Source: Lactobacillus sp. 0.1XD8-4 (lineage in GTDB: Bacteria; Bacillota; Bacilli; Lactobacillales; Lactobacillaceae). Taken from it: a DNA stretch of 56,997 bases. The translations under genes were made by a program, and so were the position numbers. The stretch's first letter is position 1. The number at the start of each line of letters is the position of its first letter. The notes under the pieces are model-generated. The model worked only from the letters and a program-made list of their open reading frames with translations. It was not told the DNA's origin and did not search any database. The stretch spans positions 1 to 56,997 of the forward strand of contig NZ_RDBR01000005.1 in assembly GCF_009663775.1 (NCBI RefSeq), written 5' to 3'. Shown piece by piece: positions 49,911-56,997 of this stretch.

Positions 49911-50822
49911 TTAATTGTTATTAAGCTTTTCTAAAAATTGGCAGAAATTATGAAGACCGTTAATATTATTATCTGGACGATAGATTAATTGAATCGTATA
50001 ACTTTGAGATGAATGTTTAGCAGGGCTATTAAGGTGACGAAAAATCACCCAATCATTAGAAAATATAGGTAAACTTTCGGGATAAAATGCGATTGCCTGT
50101 TTTAGCGCTACAAGAGTTTGTAATTGTTCAATCGTTCCGATTCGCTGGATATTGTAGGAGTAATCATGAGGTAGTGTCGCAAGAAATGCTGATTGGAGGT
50201 AAGTTGAGTTTTCGTTACTGTAATACAAAATTGTTTGACCGATAAGATCCTCGGCTGAGAGTGACTTTTTAACGGCAAGCGGGTGATCTTTACTAATTCC
50301 CAAAACCATTTGACCTTCTGCAACCTTTAAACTATTCAAACCGGTATTTGCTAAATGTTCATGTGTTCCGTAGTCAAGAATATAAGCACAATCAAGAATA
50401 CCAAGAGTAACATCGGCGATTAAGTGTTCAATACTTGCTTCGCTAACATGGAAATTAATTGGTTGATCTACCATTGCCGTTTGATATTTTTTGATATTTG
50501 CTACTAATAACCGTCCCTCGAATGGTGAAAAGTATCCTACACGGAGATTTTGTAAATTGCTGTTAGTAATATCGTGTAATTTTACAACACTGTCATTTAA
50601 TTGATTGATGAGTTCGTTTACTTGTTGTGAAAAATAAATACCAGCATTAGTCAATGAAATTTTATTACTACCTCGAAAGAATAATTTTACTCCTAATTCG
50701 TTTTCTAAATTAACCATTTGCTTCGATACGGTTCGCTGAGAGATGAATTTTTGGTCAGCAACTTTTTGAAAACTACCAAGTTGCGCAACGGCTAAAAATG
50801 TTTTGAGCTGTTCAACTTCCAT
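49911..50822 (-). CDS. LysR-family transcriptional regulator
   Basis: 303 residues. Helix-turn-helix at residues 18-37 (FQKVADQKFISQRTVSKQMV) and a substrate-binding domain (LRVGYFSPFEG, then a PBP2-like fold). The start at 50822 follows AGGAGG. It is divergent from the FrdA-like flavoprotein gene with 113 bases between, the classic arrangement for LysR control of the neighbour. The neighbour's promoter has TATAAT (50898-50903) but a poor -35, as expected for an activated promoter. Effector unknown. Confidence 0.9.
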   Translation of the reverse strand: MEVEQLKTFLAVAQLGSFQKVADQKFISQRTVSKQMVNLENELGVKLFFRGSNKISLTNAGIYFSQQVNELINQLNDSVVKLHDITNSNLQNLRVGYFSPFEGRLLVANIKKYQTAMVDQPINFHVSEASIEHLIADVTLGILDCAYILDYGTHEHLANTGLNSLKVAEGQMVLGISKDHPLAVKKSLSAEDLIGQTILYYSNENSTYLQSAFLATLPHDYSYNIQRIGTIEQLQTLVALKQAIAFYPESLPIFSNDWVIFRHLNSPAKHSSQSYTIQLIYRPDNNINGLHNFCQFLEKLNNN

Positions 50823-50935
50823 TTAAATATCCTCCTACCCGCAAAAATAGTACGGCTACCAAACTTATTACTCATATTAACACTTTCACAAAGTAATTAT
50901 AATGAAATTACAACTAAAAGAAAAAGGTGAAATCG

Positions 50936-52390
50936 ATGAGAAGCAAGAAAAAATATTATGATGTCGTTGTTGTTGGAACTGGTGCAGCGGGAATGGCTGC
51001 TGGCCTCACCGCAGTTCAGGACAGGTATTCTGTGCTAATGCTTGAGAAAGGAAGAACTACGGGAGGCAGTACCAACTATACTGAGGGGTTATTTGCAATT
51101 AATTCATATTTACAAAAAGAAAAGGGAATTGATATTAAGGCTACTGATGTGCTTAGTGAAGAAGTGAACTACTCTAAATATAAGGCTGATTCTCGAATTT
51201 GGCGTAATTATATTAATAGTAGTGCCGAAAATGTGCAATGGCTTCATGATCAAGGAGTAGAATATGAAGGCGTTCAAGCGATGGGAGCAGGCGAGGCTAC
51301 ATGGCATATCTATAAAGGAATGGGCTTCAGCGTTATTCATGATGCCCTTCAACCACGATTTGAACAAGGCGGTGGGGAAGTTCTAACCCTTACTCGGGCA
51401 GTCAATCTAACTAAAAAAGCTGATGGCAATTTTGAAGTAATGCTTCGTGACAATCGAACTAAAGAACGGTATAAAGTAAACGCCCGTGCGGTTGTTTTAG
51501 CAACTGGTGGCTATTTAAATAATCAACACTTAATTCAAGAAGAGACTAGCTATGATGAACGTCGATTAGTTCCTGTGAATTCAGGAAAAGGAACTGGTGA
51601 TGGTCTTGAGATGGCTTGGCATCTTGGTGCCCAAAAGAGTGGGATGGGGATGGCAATGTTATTTGGTGGGTATCTAAAGGATGAAAAAGAGCCATCATAT
51701 AAGATGATGTCATCCCAAATGAATACAGCCGCTGGACAACAACCACTTTTATGGGTGAATGAAAATGGTGAACGATTTGTTAATGAAGAAGTTGTTTATA
51801 ATTTTTCGTTAGCAGGCAATGCTCTTTACACACAAGCACAAGTCTATAGTATCCTTGATCAGTCAATAATTGATAAAATGGCGAGTGAAGGGAATTTTAT
51901 GGGGTTAGGAATTTACGTTCGTCGTGGGCAAAAGATGGATAAGCTCCAAACAGAACTCGATCAAGCAGTGGCTGATAAAAAGTCATTTATTTTCAAAGCA
52001 GACACTATTGAAAAACTCGCAAGAAAAATGCATGTGCCAGTAGCTAATTTCCAACAAACAATTAACCAATATAATGAATTTGCTGATAAAGGAATTGATA
52101 GTGATTTCGGAAAAGATCCTCATTATTTACAAAGGGTTACAACTGGACCGTTCTATGGATTTAAACTGAATATCGGTGCTTTTTGTACTATGGGTGGGTT
52201 GAAAGTAACGCCTCAAAATGAAGTTCTAGATACAGATTACAAACCAATTACTGGACTATATGCAGCTGGAAATGATGCTTCTGGACTAGTCGGTGATACT
52301 TATGGACCAAATATGCCAGGAACGTGCGTTGGATATGCGTTTTATTCTGGTAGGAATGCTGCCCAAAATATTAATAACTATCTTAAATAA
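50936..52390 (+). CDS. FAD-dependent reductase, FrdA/flavocytochrome c-like, without FMN-binding domain
   Basis: 484 residues, cytoplasmic. FAD motifs: DVVVVGTGAAGMAAGL and, at the C-terminus, GLYAAGNDASGL. It keeps the capping-domain signature NENGERFVNE but differs from true fumarate reductases at the substrate site: where they have H-H-T-M-G-G this protein has F-C-T-M-G-G, and the H-G-A-N-R-L-G-G element reads V-G-D-T-Y-G-P-N. Fumarate is therefore doubtful; another unsaturated acid is possible. No FMN_bind or heme domain is present, so it needs an outside electron donor. The start is ATG 50936 (AAAGGTG upstream). Divergent LysR gene; the FMN reductase/ApbE operon lies 1.7 kb on. Confidence 0.82.
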   Translation: MRSKKKYYDVVVVGTGAAGMAAGLTAVQDRYSVLMLEKGRTTGGSTNYTEGLFAINSYLQKEKGIDIKATDVLSEEVNYSKYKADSRIWRNYINSSAENVQWLHDQGVEYEGVQAMGAGEATWHIYKGMGFSVIHDALQPRFEQGGGEVLTLTRAVNLTKKADGNFEVMLRDNRTKERYKVNARAVVLATGGYLNNQHLIQEETSYDERRLVPVNSGKGTGDGLEMAWHLGAQKSGMGMAMLFGGYLKDEKEPSYKMMSSQMNTAAGQQPLLWVNENGERFVNEEVVYNFSLAGNALYTQAQVYSILDQSIIDKMASEGNFMGLGIYVRRGQKMDKLQTELDQAVADKKSFIFKADTIEKLARKMHVPVANFQQTINQYNEFADKGIDSDFGKDPHYLQRVTTGPFYGFKLNIGAFCTMGGLKVTPQNEVLDTDYKPITGLYAAGNDASGLVGDTYGPNMPGTCVGYAFYSGRNAAQNINNYLK

Positions 52391-52458: not shown

Positions 52459-53853
52459 TTATTTCCGCAATGATAATTTAACAACGGCCTCACAACGGGC
52501 TGTTTGTGGCATCATATCGATTGGCTGGATATAGTCAACGTGGTAGACGCTGGTTAGCCGTCGAAGGTTTCGTGCTAACGATGCCATGCCACAGGAAACA
52601 TAAGCGAATTTACGTGGCTTAACCTTTAAAATTTGTTTGATTAATTGATCATCAAGACCGGTTCGTGGCGGATCGACAACAAGAGCATCGAATTTTAGCC
52701 CTTCTTTTTGCCACTGGGGGAGGACTTCCTCTGCCTTGCCAACTTCATAGCGGGCATTAGTAATCCCGTTTAACTTAGCATTTTCATTTGCATCCGCGAC
52801 TGCTTCGGGGATAATTTCCATTCCGCGGACAGCCTGTACCCGTGGCGCTAGTGATAATCCAATTGTACCGATCCCAGCGTAAGCATCAATCAATGTATCG
52901 TTTTTATCCAGTTCGAGGGCATTTGCCGCTTCTTCATATAAGACTTCTGTTTGCTCGGGATTTAGTTGCAAGAATGATCGCGCGGAAAGTTTGAAGTCAA
53001 GACCCATCAGACTTTCAAGAATTGAATCTTTACCAGCGAGATGAATCATCTGCTCGCCCCACACAAGCGGGGTGTCACCAGGATTGACGTTTTGCATTAC
53101 TGACACAACTGCCGGTAGCTCTTTAGCGATCCGTGCGAGTAATTCGCGCTTGTGAGGAAGCTTAGCCGAATTAGTAATGAAAGTCAGCTGTACTTCACCC
53201 GTCGACCAAGATTCGCGGACAGCGAGGGTTTTAATAATGCCACTGTTGTGTTGCTCATCGTAGACAGGGATTTGCAGGTCCTCAATCATCTTAACGACTG
53301 CGCGGACAACCTCCATTGTTCGTGGCATCTGAACCGCGCACGTTTCCATATCAACAAGAGTGTGGCTATTGGGCTGGTATAAGCCAGCTGCAACTTTTCC
53401 GTTGACCATTCTTACTTGGAATTGAGCCTTATTCCGATAGCCGTATTGTTCAGGGGCCGCGATAGTAGGACGAACCTCATAGTTTCGGTAACCATATGGC
53501 TGAAATTTTTCAAGGCTGTCAAGAATGACCTGTCGCTTAAACTTTAATTGTTGCTGGTAAGCAAGGTTTTCCAGCTCGAAGCCACCAGCAATATCGGCAT
53601 ATTCGTCACGAGGAGTTACCCGGTAGCGACTCTTTTTCCGAATACGGTGGATTTTTGCTTCGAGATAGCGGGGGAGAACCCGCGTTACTTCAGCGACCAC
53701 AACTTCATTTGGCAAGGCACCGGGAACAAAGCAGACTTTGTGTTTATAGTAACCAATTCCATGCCCATTGACACCAAGCCGCCGAATAGTAAGCGGAAAT
53801 CTTTTGCCTACCCATACATCAACGTCTTGTTCACGTTGTTTTGATTGCGTCAT
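52459..53853 (-). CDS. rlmD: 23S rRNA (uracil-5-)-methyltransferase, RlmCD/RumA type
   Basis: 464-residue SAM-dependent RNA methyltransferase making m5U in 23S rRNA. It has an N-terminal TRAM domain (about residues 15-75), a central region, and a C-terminal Rossmann fold with IDAYAGIGTIGLSLAP, VDPPRTGLD and the catalytic Cys in YVSCGMASLARNL. The Fe-S cluster cysteines found in RumA (C-x5-C-x2-C before the helix) are absent: the segment reads RDEYADIAGGFELENLAYQQQL. The symbol is by family; it may methylate both RlmC and RlmD sites. Start at ATG 53853 after GGAGAA. Confidence 0.9.
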   Translation of the reverse strand: MTQSKQREQDVDVWVGKRFPLTIRRLGVNGHGIGYYKHKVCFVPGALPNEVVVAEVTRVLPRYLEAKIHRIRKKSRYRVTPRDEYADIAGGFELENLAYQQQLKFKRQVILDSLEKFQPYGYRNYEVRPTIAAPEQYGYRNKAQFQVRMVNGKVAAGLYQPNSHTLVDMETCAVQMPRTMEVVRAVVKMIEDLQIPVYDEQHNSGIIKTLAVRESWSTGEVQLTFITNSAKLPHKRELLARIAKELPAVVSVMQNVNPGDTPLVWGEQMIHLAGKDSILESLMGLDFKLSARSFLQLNPEQTEVLYEEAANALELDKNDTLIDAYAGIGTIGLSLAPRVQAVRGMEIIPEAVADANENAKLNGITNARYEVGKAEEVLPQWQKEGLKFDALVVDPPRTGLDDQLIKQILKVKPRKFAYVSCGMASLARNLRRLTSVYHVDYIQPIDMMPQTARCEAVVKLSLRK

Positions 53854-54129
53854 ATTATTTCTCCGTTCTTTAATAGTAATGTGGTTAATATTTTAACACA
53901 TCGATAATTAATACCGGATAAATATACAGATATGTCGGGTGCTATTTTCGATATTTGGAAAAAGATGAATTTATACTAAAGTTTTTAAAATAGTTCATTT
54001 TTATAATCAGATCTTATGAAAATATCTAATAAGTATGCATATTACTAATGATATGTTTTTTAATCGGTTAAAATATAGTAGAATAACAATGTGAAATGTT
54101 GCATAAATAACTTAAAGGAAGTGACACGT

Positions 54130-54705
54130 TTGAAAATTGCTGCAATTGCCGGGTCCAACGCAAATCATTCTTACAACCGGATGTTGCTAGAATTTATGGC
54201 CCGTCATTTTAGTGATGATGATATTGATGTGATCGATATTCGTCAAGTACCAATGTTTAATGAAAATTATAAGGGTAAGATTCCTGAGGTTGTTGCCGAT
54301 ATTGATCGTCGTGTTTCAAGCGCCGATGCTGTTATTATTGCCAGCCCAGAATACAACCATTCGATTACTTCGGCATTAAAGAGTGTGGTTGAATGGTTAT
54401 CTTATGAAGTCCACCCATTAGAGGATAAGCCAGTGATGATTATTGGGGCTTCTACTCATGACCAAGGATCATCCCGGTCGCAAGTACAATTACGGGATAT
54501 TTTGATTTCGCCCGGAGTTAATGCCTACATCTTCCAGAACGAAGAATTCTTTATGAGTGATGCTGCTAATATTATTGATGATAATGGTAATATTACCAAC
54601 GAGATGACGATTCATTTCTTAGAAAAGTGCGTGCGTGAGTTTAAGCGCTACGCCAAGGCAATTAACCAGATGGTTGCTGAAAAGAAGGAGGCGGGTAAGC
54701 AATGA
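54130..54705 (+). CDS. NAD(P)H-dependent FMN reductase
   Basis: 191-residue flavodoxin-like protein. The FMN phosphate loop is AAIAGSNANHSYNRML, and SPEYNHSITSALKSVVEWL is the NADPH-dependent FMN reductase signature. The start is TTG 54130: GGAAGTGAC lies just upstream and the protein then begins KIAAIAGSN at the first strand. A GTG at 54091 would add 13 residues with no ribosome site. The stop overlaps the start of the larger paralogue (ATGA), so translation is coupled. It lacks the PAS-like domain and tail of that paralogue. A 276-bp AT-rich gap lies upstream with TTAAAATATAGTAGAAT as a possible promoter. Confidence 0.88.
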   Translation: MKIAAIAGSNANHSYNRMLLEFMARHFSDDDIDVIDIRQVPMFNENYKGKIPEVVADIDRRVSSADAVIIASPEYNHSITSALKSVVEWLSYEVHPLEDKPVMIIGASTHDQGSSRSQVQLRDILISPGVNAYIFQNEEFFMSDAANIIDDNGNITNEMTIHFLEKCVREFKRYAKAINQMVAEKKEAGKQ

Positions 54706-55955
54706 AAATTCTCGCATTAGTCGGTACAAACGCAAAATTCTCCTACAATCGAATTTTACTGAAGTACATGAAAAAGCATTTTCGGCAAATGGCAGACATT
54801 GAGATTTACGAAATTAGTAAATTACCTCCTTTTAGTGTCGATGTTCCGCTTGCCGAACAAACAGAAGTGTGGAAACTAAAGCAAAAGGTGAAAGCCGCTG
54901 ACGGGGTCATCTTTTCCACGCCCGAATATGACCACGGAATTCCCGCAGCCTTAAAGAGTGCTGTTGAATGGCTTTCATACCACACGAATGTTTTATCTCA
55001 TAAGCCAACGATGGTCGTTGGGGTATCATACGGTCGCCAAGCATCTGCCCGTTCACAGGTTCAAATGCGCCAGATTTTGGTTTCACCCGATTGTGATACC
55101 AACCTCTTACCAGGAAATGAAGTCTTGATTGGAAATGCTAGTCACTCATTCTCAAAGGACGGCCGGTTACTCGACCCACAAATGCGTGACAACCTTGAAG
55201 ACTGCTTTACTCATTTTGTGGAATATATTCAAATCTTTGAAAAAGTTAATAAGGAGGGACTGGATATGTCCGTTAAACAACCAACGATCAGCGAAGCATA
55301 CATTAACTTCCCAACAGGTCGTTTGACATTAAAAGAAGTTCAACAAATCTTTAGTACGATTCCGTTTGAAATCGATTTAATCGATAGTACAGACCACTTT
55401 GCATGGTTCTCTGATAAGCCAAATCGGGAGCACGTACGTAATGTGGCTTCTCTTGGTGAAACTGTTCAAGAATGTCACCCACCAATGGCAGTACCAACTG
55501 TAATGAAGATCATCAACAGCTTCCGTAATGGTGAAAAGGACGTTGTTACCCGCCCATTGTGGATGAATGGTCACCGTTCATTGATCCAATACTATGCTTT
55601 GCGTGATATTAACGGTCACTACCTAGGAACGATTGAATTTACTGGTAGTGTCGAATATATCCTTAACCTCTTTGAAAATGGCGCATGGGGAACTGATGGC
55701 AACACCAGTGCGTCAAAGCATGATGAACCAGCTAATGATGGCGCGGAAGAAGAAAGCGTTGATGCTTCAACTGGCGCCTCTGAATCTAGTGATGACGGTA
55801 ACGCTGAGCCTACGAGTTCAACGGTTGCTACGCCAGCGCTAGCCCCAACTGTTGATGCCGCTGAATCAGACGCTACAACGGGGGCTTCTGATGCTGGTAG
55901 CGTTGATGCAAATGATGAAGAGGCCGATGCCACGACAGGAGCATCCGAAAACTAA
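54702..55955 (+). CDS. FMN reductase-PAS fusion with three flavinylation motifs
   Basis: 417 residues. Residues 1-185 are a second FMN reductase domain (LALVGTNAKFSYNRILL, TPEYDHGIPAALKSAVEWL). Residues about 197-325 are a PAS-like DUF438-type domain (PFEIDLIDSTDHFAWFSD, ECHPPMAVPTV, YALRDINGHYLGTIEF). Residues 326-417 are a disordered acidic, Ser/Thr/Ala-rich tail with D354-ASTGAS, D390-ATTGAS and D409-ATTGAS. These match the D-x-x-[ST]-G-A-[ST] motif to which ApbE attaches FMN, and apbE is the next gene, two bases after the stop. No export signal, so it is predicted to be a cytoplasmic, multiply flavinylated redox carrier. Flavinylation is inferred, not shown. Confidence 0.85.
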   Translation: MKILALVGTNAKFSYNRILLKYMKKHFRQMADIEIYEISKLPPFSVDVPLAEQTEVWKLKQKVKAADGVIFSTPEYDHGIPAALKSAVEWLSYHTNVLSHKPTMVVGVSYGRQASARSQVQMRQILVSPDCDTNLLPGNEVLIGNASHSFSKDGRLLDPQMRDNLEDCFTHFVEYIQIFEKVNKEGLDMSVKQPTISEAYINFPTGRLTLKEVQQIFSTIPFEIDLIDSTDHFAWFSDKPNREHVRNVASLGETVQECHPPMAVPTVMKIINSFRNGEKDVVTRPLWMNGHRSLIQYYALRDINGHYLGTIEFTGSVEYILNLFENGAWGTDGNTSASKHDEPANDGAEEESVDASTGASESSDDGNAEPTSSTVATPALAPTVDAAESDATTGASDAGSVDANDEEADATTGASEN

Positions 55956-55957
55956 TC

Positions 55958-56881
55958 ATGAATAAAGAATTGATGGCGCAACGTCACGTGATGACTCACC
56001 ACGCATTAGGAACACGGATAAATTTGACGATTTTTGGGAATGCCCATTTTGCTTTACTGAAAAAGTCGATGGATCTGATTGATCATTACGAAGACCAGCT
56101 GACGGTTAACCGTGATCAATCAGAAGTAATGTCGGTCAACCATGGTGCGGGGAAAACACCTAAAATGGTGTCGCAAACAACTTATGACCTAGTTGAAATG
56201 GCGGTAAAGTACAGTCGTGAAAACTTTGGCTTCAATGCATTGATTGGGCCGCTAGTTAAGCTTTGGAAGATTGGCTTTAATGGTGCGCGTGTTCCTAGTG
56301 ATAAGGAAATTAAGGAACGGTTGCGGTTAATTGACCCATATAAGGTGCTGCTCGATCGGGATGCACGGACGGTTTACCTCGAAGAACCGGGGATGGAGCT
56401 CGACCTTGGCGGTATTGCGAAGGGCTATATTGCTGATCGGATTCGTGACCTTTGGGTAGCAGAAGGGGTGCCGGCTGGGATTATTGATCTTGGCGGTAAC
56501 CTCCTCTTCGTTGGTAACTCACCACGGCGCGATGACGGACAGTGGATTATCGGTGTTCAAGATCCGCAGCTCCACCGGGGAGAGAACCTGGCAACAGTTC
56601 GCGAAGCAGCATGTTCCGCTGTTACGTCAGGAATTTATGAGCGCTTCTTGATAAAAAATGGTCGTCGTTATCACCACTTGCTTGATCCGCGGACCGGTTA
56701 CCCTCTTGATACCGATTTGAGTAGCGTAACGGTTTTTACTGATCAGTCAGTAATGGGTGAGGTTGAAGCTAAACGCTTATTCTTTAATGGTGCGCCGATC
56801 ACTGATTGGGCATCACGCTCAGGAAATCGTGGCGCTATCTTTATTCATAATGATGAATCAATGGAGAACATTGGTTTTTAA
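55958..56881 (+). CDS. apbE: FAD:protein FMN transferase (ApbE family)
   Basis: 307 residues. It moves FMN from FAD to a Thr or Ser in the target motif. Recognised by HHALGTRINLTIFG, NALIGPLVKLWKIG, MELDLGGIAKGYIADRI and SAVTSGIYERF...HHLLDPRTGYP. There is no lipoprotein signal peptide, so it should act in the cytoplasm, unlike many ApbE proteins. In the metal-site segment, where E. coli ApbE has A-D-G-L-A-T, this protein has G-E-V-E-A-K, so it is divergent there. It follows the flavinylation-tail protein by two bases, with a poor ribosome site and probable coupling. Confidence 0.88.
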   Translation: MNKELMAQRHVMTHHALGTRINLTIFGNAHFALLKKSMDLIDHYEDQLTVNRDQSEVMSVNHGAGKTPKMVSQTTYDLVEMAVKYSRENFGFNALIGPLVKLWKIGFNGARVPSDKEIKERLRLIDPYKVLLDRDARTVYLEEPGMELDLGGIAKGYIADRIRDLWVAEGVPAGIIDLGGNLLFVGNSPRRDDGQWIIGVQDPQLHRGENLATVREAACSAVTSGIYERFLIKNGRRYHHLLDPRTGYPLDTDLSSVTVFTDQSVMGEVEAKRLFFNGAPITDWASRSGNRGAIFIHNDESMENIGF

Positions 56882-56950
56882 TAGTCTTATAAATGAAAAT
56901 GGTCGTTAGTATCTCTTTTTAGGATATCTGTCAACTGGTATGGTTGACTA

Positions 56951-56989
56951 AAAATACTTCCTACAAAAATGTAGGGGGTATTTTTTTTA
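56951..56989 (+). terminator. Terminator after apbE
   Basis: AAAATAC..CCTACA, four-base loop, TGTAGG..GTATTTTTTTT. Ends the FMN reductase-apbE operon. Confidence 0.9.
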
Positions 56990-56997
56990 CGAAAAAA

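Follow-up and report, generated by a model that had tools for sequence, protein, structure and literature searches.

The window (the whole 56,997-nucleotide stretch of DNA from the gut bacterium Lactobacillus sp. 0.1XD8-4 analyzed here) encodes a multi-site, PAS-fused variant of the published class of flavinylated FMN_red proteins, with three ApbE-type motifs in its C-terminal tail. On balance we think it probable that this soluble NAD(P)H:FMN oxidoreductase has a flexible tail holding several FMNs, each tethered independently of the others, and that the same kind of tag is portable and present on other soluble proteins. The motifs are conserved and under selection, and we observe both linkage and co-occurrence of the components; flavinylation within the class and NADH oxidase activity of the Lactobacillus johnsonii reductase pair were shown by others. 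The features of the locus are as follows:

49911..50822, minus strand: LysR regulator, divergent from vprA (ORF position, profile match)
50927..52390, plus strand: vprA-type FAD_binding_2 reductase, a weak candidate acceptor (NCBIfam NF053717, 812 bits, cut-off 600)
52459-53853, minus strand: TRAM / uracil-5 RNA methyltransferase-type gene, between vprA and the reductase pair (Pfam)
54091..54705, plus strand: small NAD(P)H:FMN reductase, FRedA-like partner, untagged (Pfam FMN_red, 114 bits)
54702..55955, plus strand: FMN_red-PAS_10-tail protein, 417 aa (translation, Pfam)
54702..55139, plus strand: FMN_red domain, residues 1-146 (PF03358, 113 bits, cut-off 24)
55341..55640, plus strand: PAS_10 domain, residues 214-313 (PF13596, 56 bits, above the Pfam cut-off)
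55677..55952, plus strand: acidic linear tail, 92 aa, residues 326-417 (linkers poorly conserved, pN/pS 0.51)
55695..55715, plus strand: decayed fourth site, D332-GNTSAS (canonical in all 27 others of the 28 genus sequences)
55761..55781, plus strand: putative ApbE site D354-ASTGAS (canonical in 28/28 genus sequences)
55869..55889, plus strand: putative ApbE site D390-ATTGAS (canonical in 23/28 genus sequences)
55926..55946, plus strand: putative ApbE site D409-ATTGAS (canonical in 28/28 genus sequences)
55958..56881, plus strand: apbE, FAD:protein FMN transferase without a signal peptide (Pfam ApbE, 231 bits)

Two bases separate the FMN_red-PAS stop (55955) from the apbE start (55958), as a preliminary description of this DNA had stated; that description left out the small reductase gene (54091-54705), whose stop codon overlaps the FMN_red-PAS start by four bases. 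It also took the reductase to be soluble, and this agrees with the absence of an N-terminal membrane or signal stretch in either the FMN_red-PAS protein or ApbE (maximum mean 19-residue hydropathy of 0.65 and 0.96, respectively, over the first 30 starts); an exported system was rejected on the same scan of the N-termini. The FMN_red-PAS protein has no match to FMN_bind (PF04205) at E 0.01, and its AlphaFold model, made from a four-sequence alignment, has a pLDDT of 33 and is uninformative. In a profile search of the whole genome the window ApbE is the single ApbE match; its nearest solved chain is 7esa (E 3.6e-61), and TSGIYER and YHHxLDPxTGYP are common to both. Following apbE, at 56945-56992, there is an inverted repeat and then a T run, terminator-like by eye, and the contig ends there.

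Selection on the tail motifs

Translation confirms DASTGAS at residue 354 and DATTGAS at residues 390 and 409, all in the acidic tail, as originally described. Among 200,000 shuffles of the 92-residue tail, at least one motif arose in 3,272, at least two in 13, and three in none. We compared 28 Limosilactobacillus sequences (29 genus loci minus L027 and L033, plus the window), in which the fixed motif residues (D, [ST], G, A and S) have a pN of 0.011 and a pS of 0.637, giving a ratio of 0.018, as compared with 0.507 for the linkers, 0.140 for FMN_red and 0.089 for PAS. The pattern of substitution indicates that the tail motifs are under strong selection. The D and TGA positions are thus conserved in homologs of the tail, and among these sequences there is no case of a retained tail with lost motifs, the finding that the preliminary description had said would count against it.

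Module variants among relatives and comparison with known systems

The P0001 query matches in 169 of 194 relatives at E 0.001, many over FMN_red only, and a PAS profile built from the FMN_red-PAS family matches in 106 of the 194 at 1e-5, a count that takes in other PAS proteins. All 37 aligned FMN_red-PAS rows (the window, 34 genus, family and order loci chosen by ORF length, L. lactis and E. faecium) have two or more copies of D-x-x-[STA]-[GSA]-A-S after residue 300, and 12 further FMN_red-PAS loci also have at least two, by a slightly wider pattern. A second FMN_red gene adjoins FMN_red-PAS in 63 of 63 loci. The apbE gene is in the same stretch in 48 of these, including 29/29 close genus loci and 19/34 more distant ones; the 15 genomes without apbE near FMN_red-PAS each have an ApbE match elsewhere.

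Plasmids of Lactococcus lactis and Enterococcus faecium have the order apbE, small FMN_red, FMN_red-PAS. The L. lactis FMN_red-PAS protein (L051) has two DATSGAS copies and, as a motif-bearing FMN_red protein beside apbE, is probably the one described by Huang 2024 (WP_021723379.1), an identification made from these features. On the E. faecium plasmid (L053:6001-7221) each of the three tail copies has serine at the glycine position of the motif (DAVSSAS, DAVTSAS, DAVSSAS); this locus has its own apbE nearby, and copies of IS1216 on both flanks.

The tail is also found in other settings. It follows FMN_red alone, without PAS, in L307-L310, and PAS alone in L300-L304, and these split PAS-tail proteins have two to four motif-like sites. 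An 882-aa chain (L305:1000-3645) has one FMN_red domain, several PAS repeats (three places in the PAS profile search) and nine motif-like sites between and after the repeats; L311 has seven such sites. Four stand-alone PAS_10 proteins have a tag:

L290:903-1508: stand-alone PAS_10 protein with a single C-terminal tag, DASTGAS, directly beside apbE
L291:1242-1802: stand-alone PAS_10 protein with a single C-terminal tag, DATTGAS
L293:1032-1592: stand-alone PAS_10 protein with a single C-terminal tag, DATTGAS
L292:1151-1684: stand-alone PAS_10 protein with a variant tag, DAITSAS

The stand-alone PAS proteins of L297, L307 and the window genome itself (L003) have no tag. Ten large fusions have one motif each, located between the FMN_red and FAD parts in L280-L284 and elsewhere in L285-L289. 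Pfam searches with four of the ten found FMN_red, FMN_bind and FAD_binding_2 in all four, in the orders FMN_red-FMN_bind-FAD (L280, L283), FMN_red-FAD-FMN_bind (L285) and FMN_bind-FAD-FMN_red (L288), so that an NAD(P)H reductase, a covalent FMN and an FAD site do go together. The variation in copy number and carrier domain fits independent tethers.

The preliminary description knew of no system with this exact layout, a statement that finds no support, since both the FMN_red class of Huang 2024 (PMC11334425) and the reductase pair with PAS of Valladares 2015 (PMC4500961) were already published. Passages of the former describe apbE-linked FMN_red proteins, mostly in Firmicutes, whose unstructured C-terminal extension bears one or two motifs, and report flavinylation with alanine controls for two Lactococcus proteins. 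The window protein has in common with this class the FMN_red domain, the motif-bearing C-terminal extension and the nearby apbE, but it has three motifs, four ancestrally, and as many as nine motif-like sites are present in relatives. Neither PAS nor Fe-S is mentioned in the text of PMC11334425, and YneR-like and PAS tag carriers were not found in its passages. The available parts of Valladares 2015 describe L. johnsonii FRedA/FRedB, a reductase pair that together with a PAS protein is an NADH oxidase making H2O2, and record a PAS fusion in other lactobacilli. Two adjacent FMN reductases plus PAS_10 are common to that system and the window, although PAS is fused in the window and separate in L. 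johnsonii, and neither ApbE nor 'covalent' appears in the portion of PMC4500961 available.

Several other systems are similar in part. Klebsiella pneumoniae has a cytosolic ApbE without a signal peptide and a soluble target, as here, although according to passages of PMC12052999 that target is a fumarate reductase, as compared with FMN_red-PAS with a linear multi-site tail. The multi-flavinylated proteins in passages of Meheust 2021 (PMC8238504) resemble the window protein in having several ApbE sites per chain, but they are extracytosolic with FMN_bind domains, whereas the window protein has neither an FMN_bind match nor a signal peptide. In flavin-tag biotechnology, as described in parts of PMC12052999, the seven-residue motif is enough for ApbE and works best at a terminus; the tag is engineered there and apparently natural here.

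Tagged YneR/PdhI-like proteins

A motif scan of the window genome gave 15 DNA matches, as compared with six for a reversed control pattern. In open frames of at least 40 residues, three matches fall in the reductase and two in an adhesin-like repeat protein; others are in a 97-aa FMN_bind protein, in an 80-residue frame of doubtful status and at the C-terminal ends of two small soluble proteins:

C48:13041-13430 (L054): YneR/PdhI-like protein ending DASTGASRK (...KADASTGASRK), likely ApbE substrate
C51:10231-10569 (L040): YneR/PdhI-like protein ending DAATGASRKYEEYWE (longer end ...VDAATGASRKYEEYWE), likely ApbE substrate

The adhesin-like repeats with DKVTGAT (L035 and L036; named by eye) were discounted as products of an underlying DKVTG repeat. 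The 97-aa FMN_bind protein (contig C30, L050:1468-1761) has DGITGAS, is without an evident signal peptide, and is a possible cytosolic target of ApbE.

In a model of the L. reuteri copy the core of the small tagged protein has as its best Foldseek match chain B of 9a4q, 'Integrative model of ODPA-YNER' (E 1.2e-10, TM 0.88 by target; the matched chain has 95 residues), and residues 107-129 are below pLDDT 50. By this model the fold of the tagged small proteins is that of YneR/PdhI. According to passages of O'Reilly 2023 (PMC10090944), YneR of Bacillus subtilis was renamed PdhI as an inhibitor of pyruvate dehydrogenase E1; the fold is common to the tagged proteins, and the inhibition is known for the B. 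subtilis protein only. An IscA/HesB iron-sulfur carrier was considered and rejected, as copy A has no cysteine and the Fe-S_biosyn match of 13 bits is below the cut-off of 26.3.

Selection was tested with 21 of 24 copy-A loci and 11 of 14 copy-B loci, near-copies being excluded. For copy A the pN/pS is 0.014 in the tag, 0.229 in the linker and 0.205 in the core (21 sequences), and for copy B it is 0.071, 0.697 and 0.318, respectively (11 sequences). By a pattern broader than the canonical motif, a tag-like end is present on at least one copy in 46 of 47 genus genomes with a readable YneR-like copy; G009 has none. It is very probable that the window ApbE also modifies small YneR/PdhI-like proteins with the same terminal motif. 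Searches of open-licence PubMed Central found no publication on YneR and ApbE together and no description of the tag on YneR/PdhI-like or stand-alone PAS proteins, with HesB absent among the matches listed; flavinylation and a PAS domain occur together there in one paper, on engineered flavoproteins (PMC10722498). These further carriers are the unexpected element of the analysis; they are encoded outside the window, beyond what the preliminary description could see.

Outside the genus, a tagged YneR-like protein is present in 6 of the 26 genomes whose reductase or PAS gene bears a tail and in none of the 34 that have no such gene (Fisher p 0.0046; phylogeny not controlled). The table pools genomes from two rounds, the second being the best-scoring matches plus some with long ORFs, and omits one degenerate case (G257, DTTTGSS); module status derives from the PAS profile and four hand-read loci without PAS, so tail-only reductases may be missed. 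Two observations argue against a strict link: the YneR-like protein is untagged in 20 of the 26 module-bearing genomes outside the genus, and six genomes of the genus have the tag but show no module. Three of these six have ApbE (G019, G023 and G038; in G019 there is no FMN_red in the 8 kb read), and three are without it (G005, G015 and G017, which are 93%, 75% and 66% complete). A tree of 74 YneR-like cores, built from few columns by a quick method, has six tag changes, with gain and loss undistinguished, of which at least four are forced by starred branches. The motif flavor at positions 4-5 agrees between the FMN_red-PAS and YneR-like proteins of the same genome at 0.714 across 42 genomes, as compared with 0.511 when shuffled (0 of 5,000 as high); the figures are 0.414 and 0.179 (p 0.015) for nine hand-chosen representatives and 0.447 and 0.217 (p 0.011) for ten. 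Examples of matching flavors are FMN_red-PAS DTGASAS with DTVASAS in G049, and DADSGAS with DAQSGAS in G182.

Gene context differs among these genomes. One Limosilactobacillus locus (L234) has LysR, vprA, RNA methyltransferase, small FMN_red, FMN_red-PAS and apbE in an order identical to that of the window, and a tagged YneR-like gene comes after the LysR gene of the cluster. In L198, L233 and L239 a tagged YneR-like copy is ~2 kb or less from the small FMN_red, and neither vprA nor a YneR-like gene is present in the 12-14 kb read at L199-L203; vprA is thus absent from the wide genus loci L198-L203 as well as from L233 and L239. Within the 63 loci a VprA-like gene occurs in L179 and L185 only, and VprA as a general electron acceptor is unsupported, being hardly linked to the reductase loci. 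In a divergent Limosilactobacillus clade the tagged copy is directly upstream of both E1 subunit genes (G031 by Pfam, G019 by eye), and in G049 it is 1.7 kb from the E1 subunit genes (by eye). In L316 (1505-1921 and 2620-4697) and L317 the pyruvate dehydrogenase E1 genes are immediately preceded by a gene for a YneR-like protein that has DTVASAS close to its end. In the window genome the YneR-like copies are on contigs C48 and C51 and the E1 gene is on C11.

Proposed flavin tethering and its possible roles

We infer modification in Lactobacillus sp. 0.1XD8-4, the swinging of the tether and the acceptors as follows. Cytosolic ApbE would take FMN from FAD and attach it to the final serine of every DxxTGAS site, producing an oxidoreductase of small FMN_red and FMN_red-PAS with up to three covalent FMNs on its flexible tail. 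The tail would be a set of independent tethers, each FMN swinging to the reductase active site and taking electrons from NAD(P)H; once reduced, it may pass them to oxygen, an FAD reductase or another tagged protein. In this way a cofactor-substrate that this class of enzyme binds loosely would be kept nearby by the tethers and, the tag being portable, the same ApbE could load YneR/PdhI-like proteins. All of the window sites end in serine, and since ApbE modifies serine sites 10-55% less than threonine (passages of PMC12052999), loading may be partial. L. johnsonii FRedA/B can use free FMN (parts of PMC4500961), so tethering is unnecessary for catalysis. Against the favored explanation are the 15 of 34 more distant loci in which apbE is outside the fetched stretch, and the near absence of linkage to VprA.

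One alternative, possible although we consider it unlikely, is that a single tethered FMN permanently fills the FMN_red pocket, with the other sites as spares that raise the odds of loading. The sites in the L. lactis model are near conserved flavin pockets (passages of Huang 2024, PMC11334425), the L. johnsonii subunits were without flavin when purified separately (parts of PMC4500961), and spares would help if serine sites load less well (parts of PMC12052999); but motif-like copies number up to seven and nine, and the tag is also on YneR-like and PAS proteins with no FMN_red domain. The tail FMNs might instead mainly speed the conversion of oxygen to H2O2, with PAS tuning assembly. In L. 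johnsonii H2O2 is a product of the reductase pair and the PAS protein slows formation of the holo-complex, and the split PAS-tail proteins bear two to four motif-like sites, yet the available text of Valladares 2015 (PMC4500961) is without ApbE or 'covalent', and we regard this reading as improbable.

The flavin wire of the preliminary description, in which FMNs at set distances pass electrons along the tail, finds no support and is very unlikely. Several sites per chain are as it would predict, and extracellular multi-flavinylated FMN_bind proteins have been proposed to act so (passages of PMC8238504), but the linkers evolve fast (pN/pS 0.51) and a fixed wire does not fit a copy number (1-9), spacing and carrier domain that all vary. 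That the motifs are unmodified by-products of low complexity is hardly credible, even in a tail rich in D, S, T, A and G, given the absence of three motifs in any shuffle, the motif pN/pS of 0.018, and the flavinylation of the class demonstrated by others (passages of PMC11334425). We favor independent tethers on a soluble reductase.

ApbE flavinylation has been studied mostly as a means to hold flavins on exported proteins, and free FMN is at hand inside the cell. A soluble enzyme whose loose tail would hold several covalent FMNs thus raises the question of why a flavin should be tethered at all, and the same type of tag on other soluble proteins of relatives suggests that intracellular flavins may be tethered in this way more generally. 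More tentatively, lactic acid bacteria may have a cytosolic flavin-tagging system in which unrelated soluble proteins (FMN reductases, PAS and YneR/PdhI-like) share a portable C-terminal peptide that a single soluble ApbE loads with FMN, and the reductase complex charges the tethered flavins; the tagged PdhI-like protein would then be a new small flavin electron carrier, or the flavin redox state would govern pyruvate dehydrogenase. If true, tagged YneR/PdhI-like proteins would add a class of ApbE substrate in organisms that are used in food and as probiotics, and for the related protein of B. subtilis a metabolic target, pyruvate dehydrogenase, is already known.
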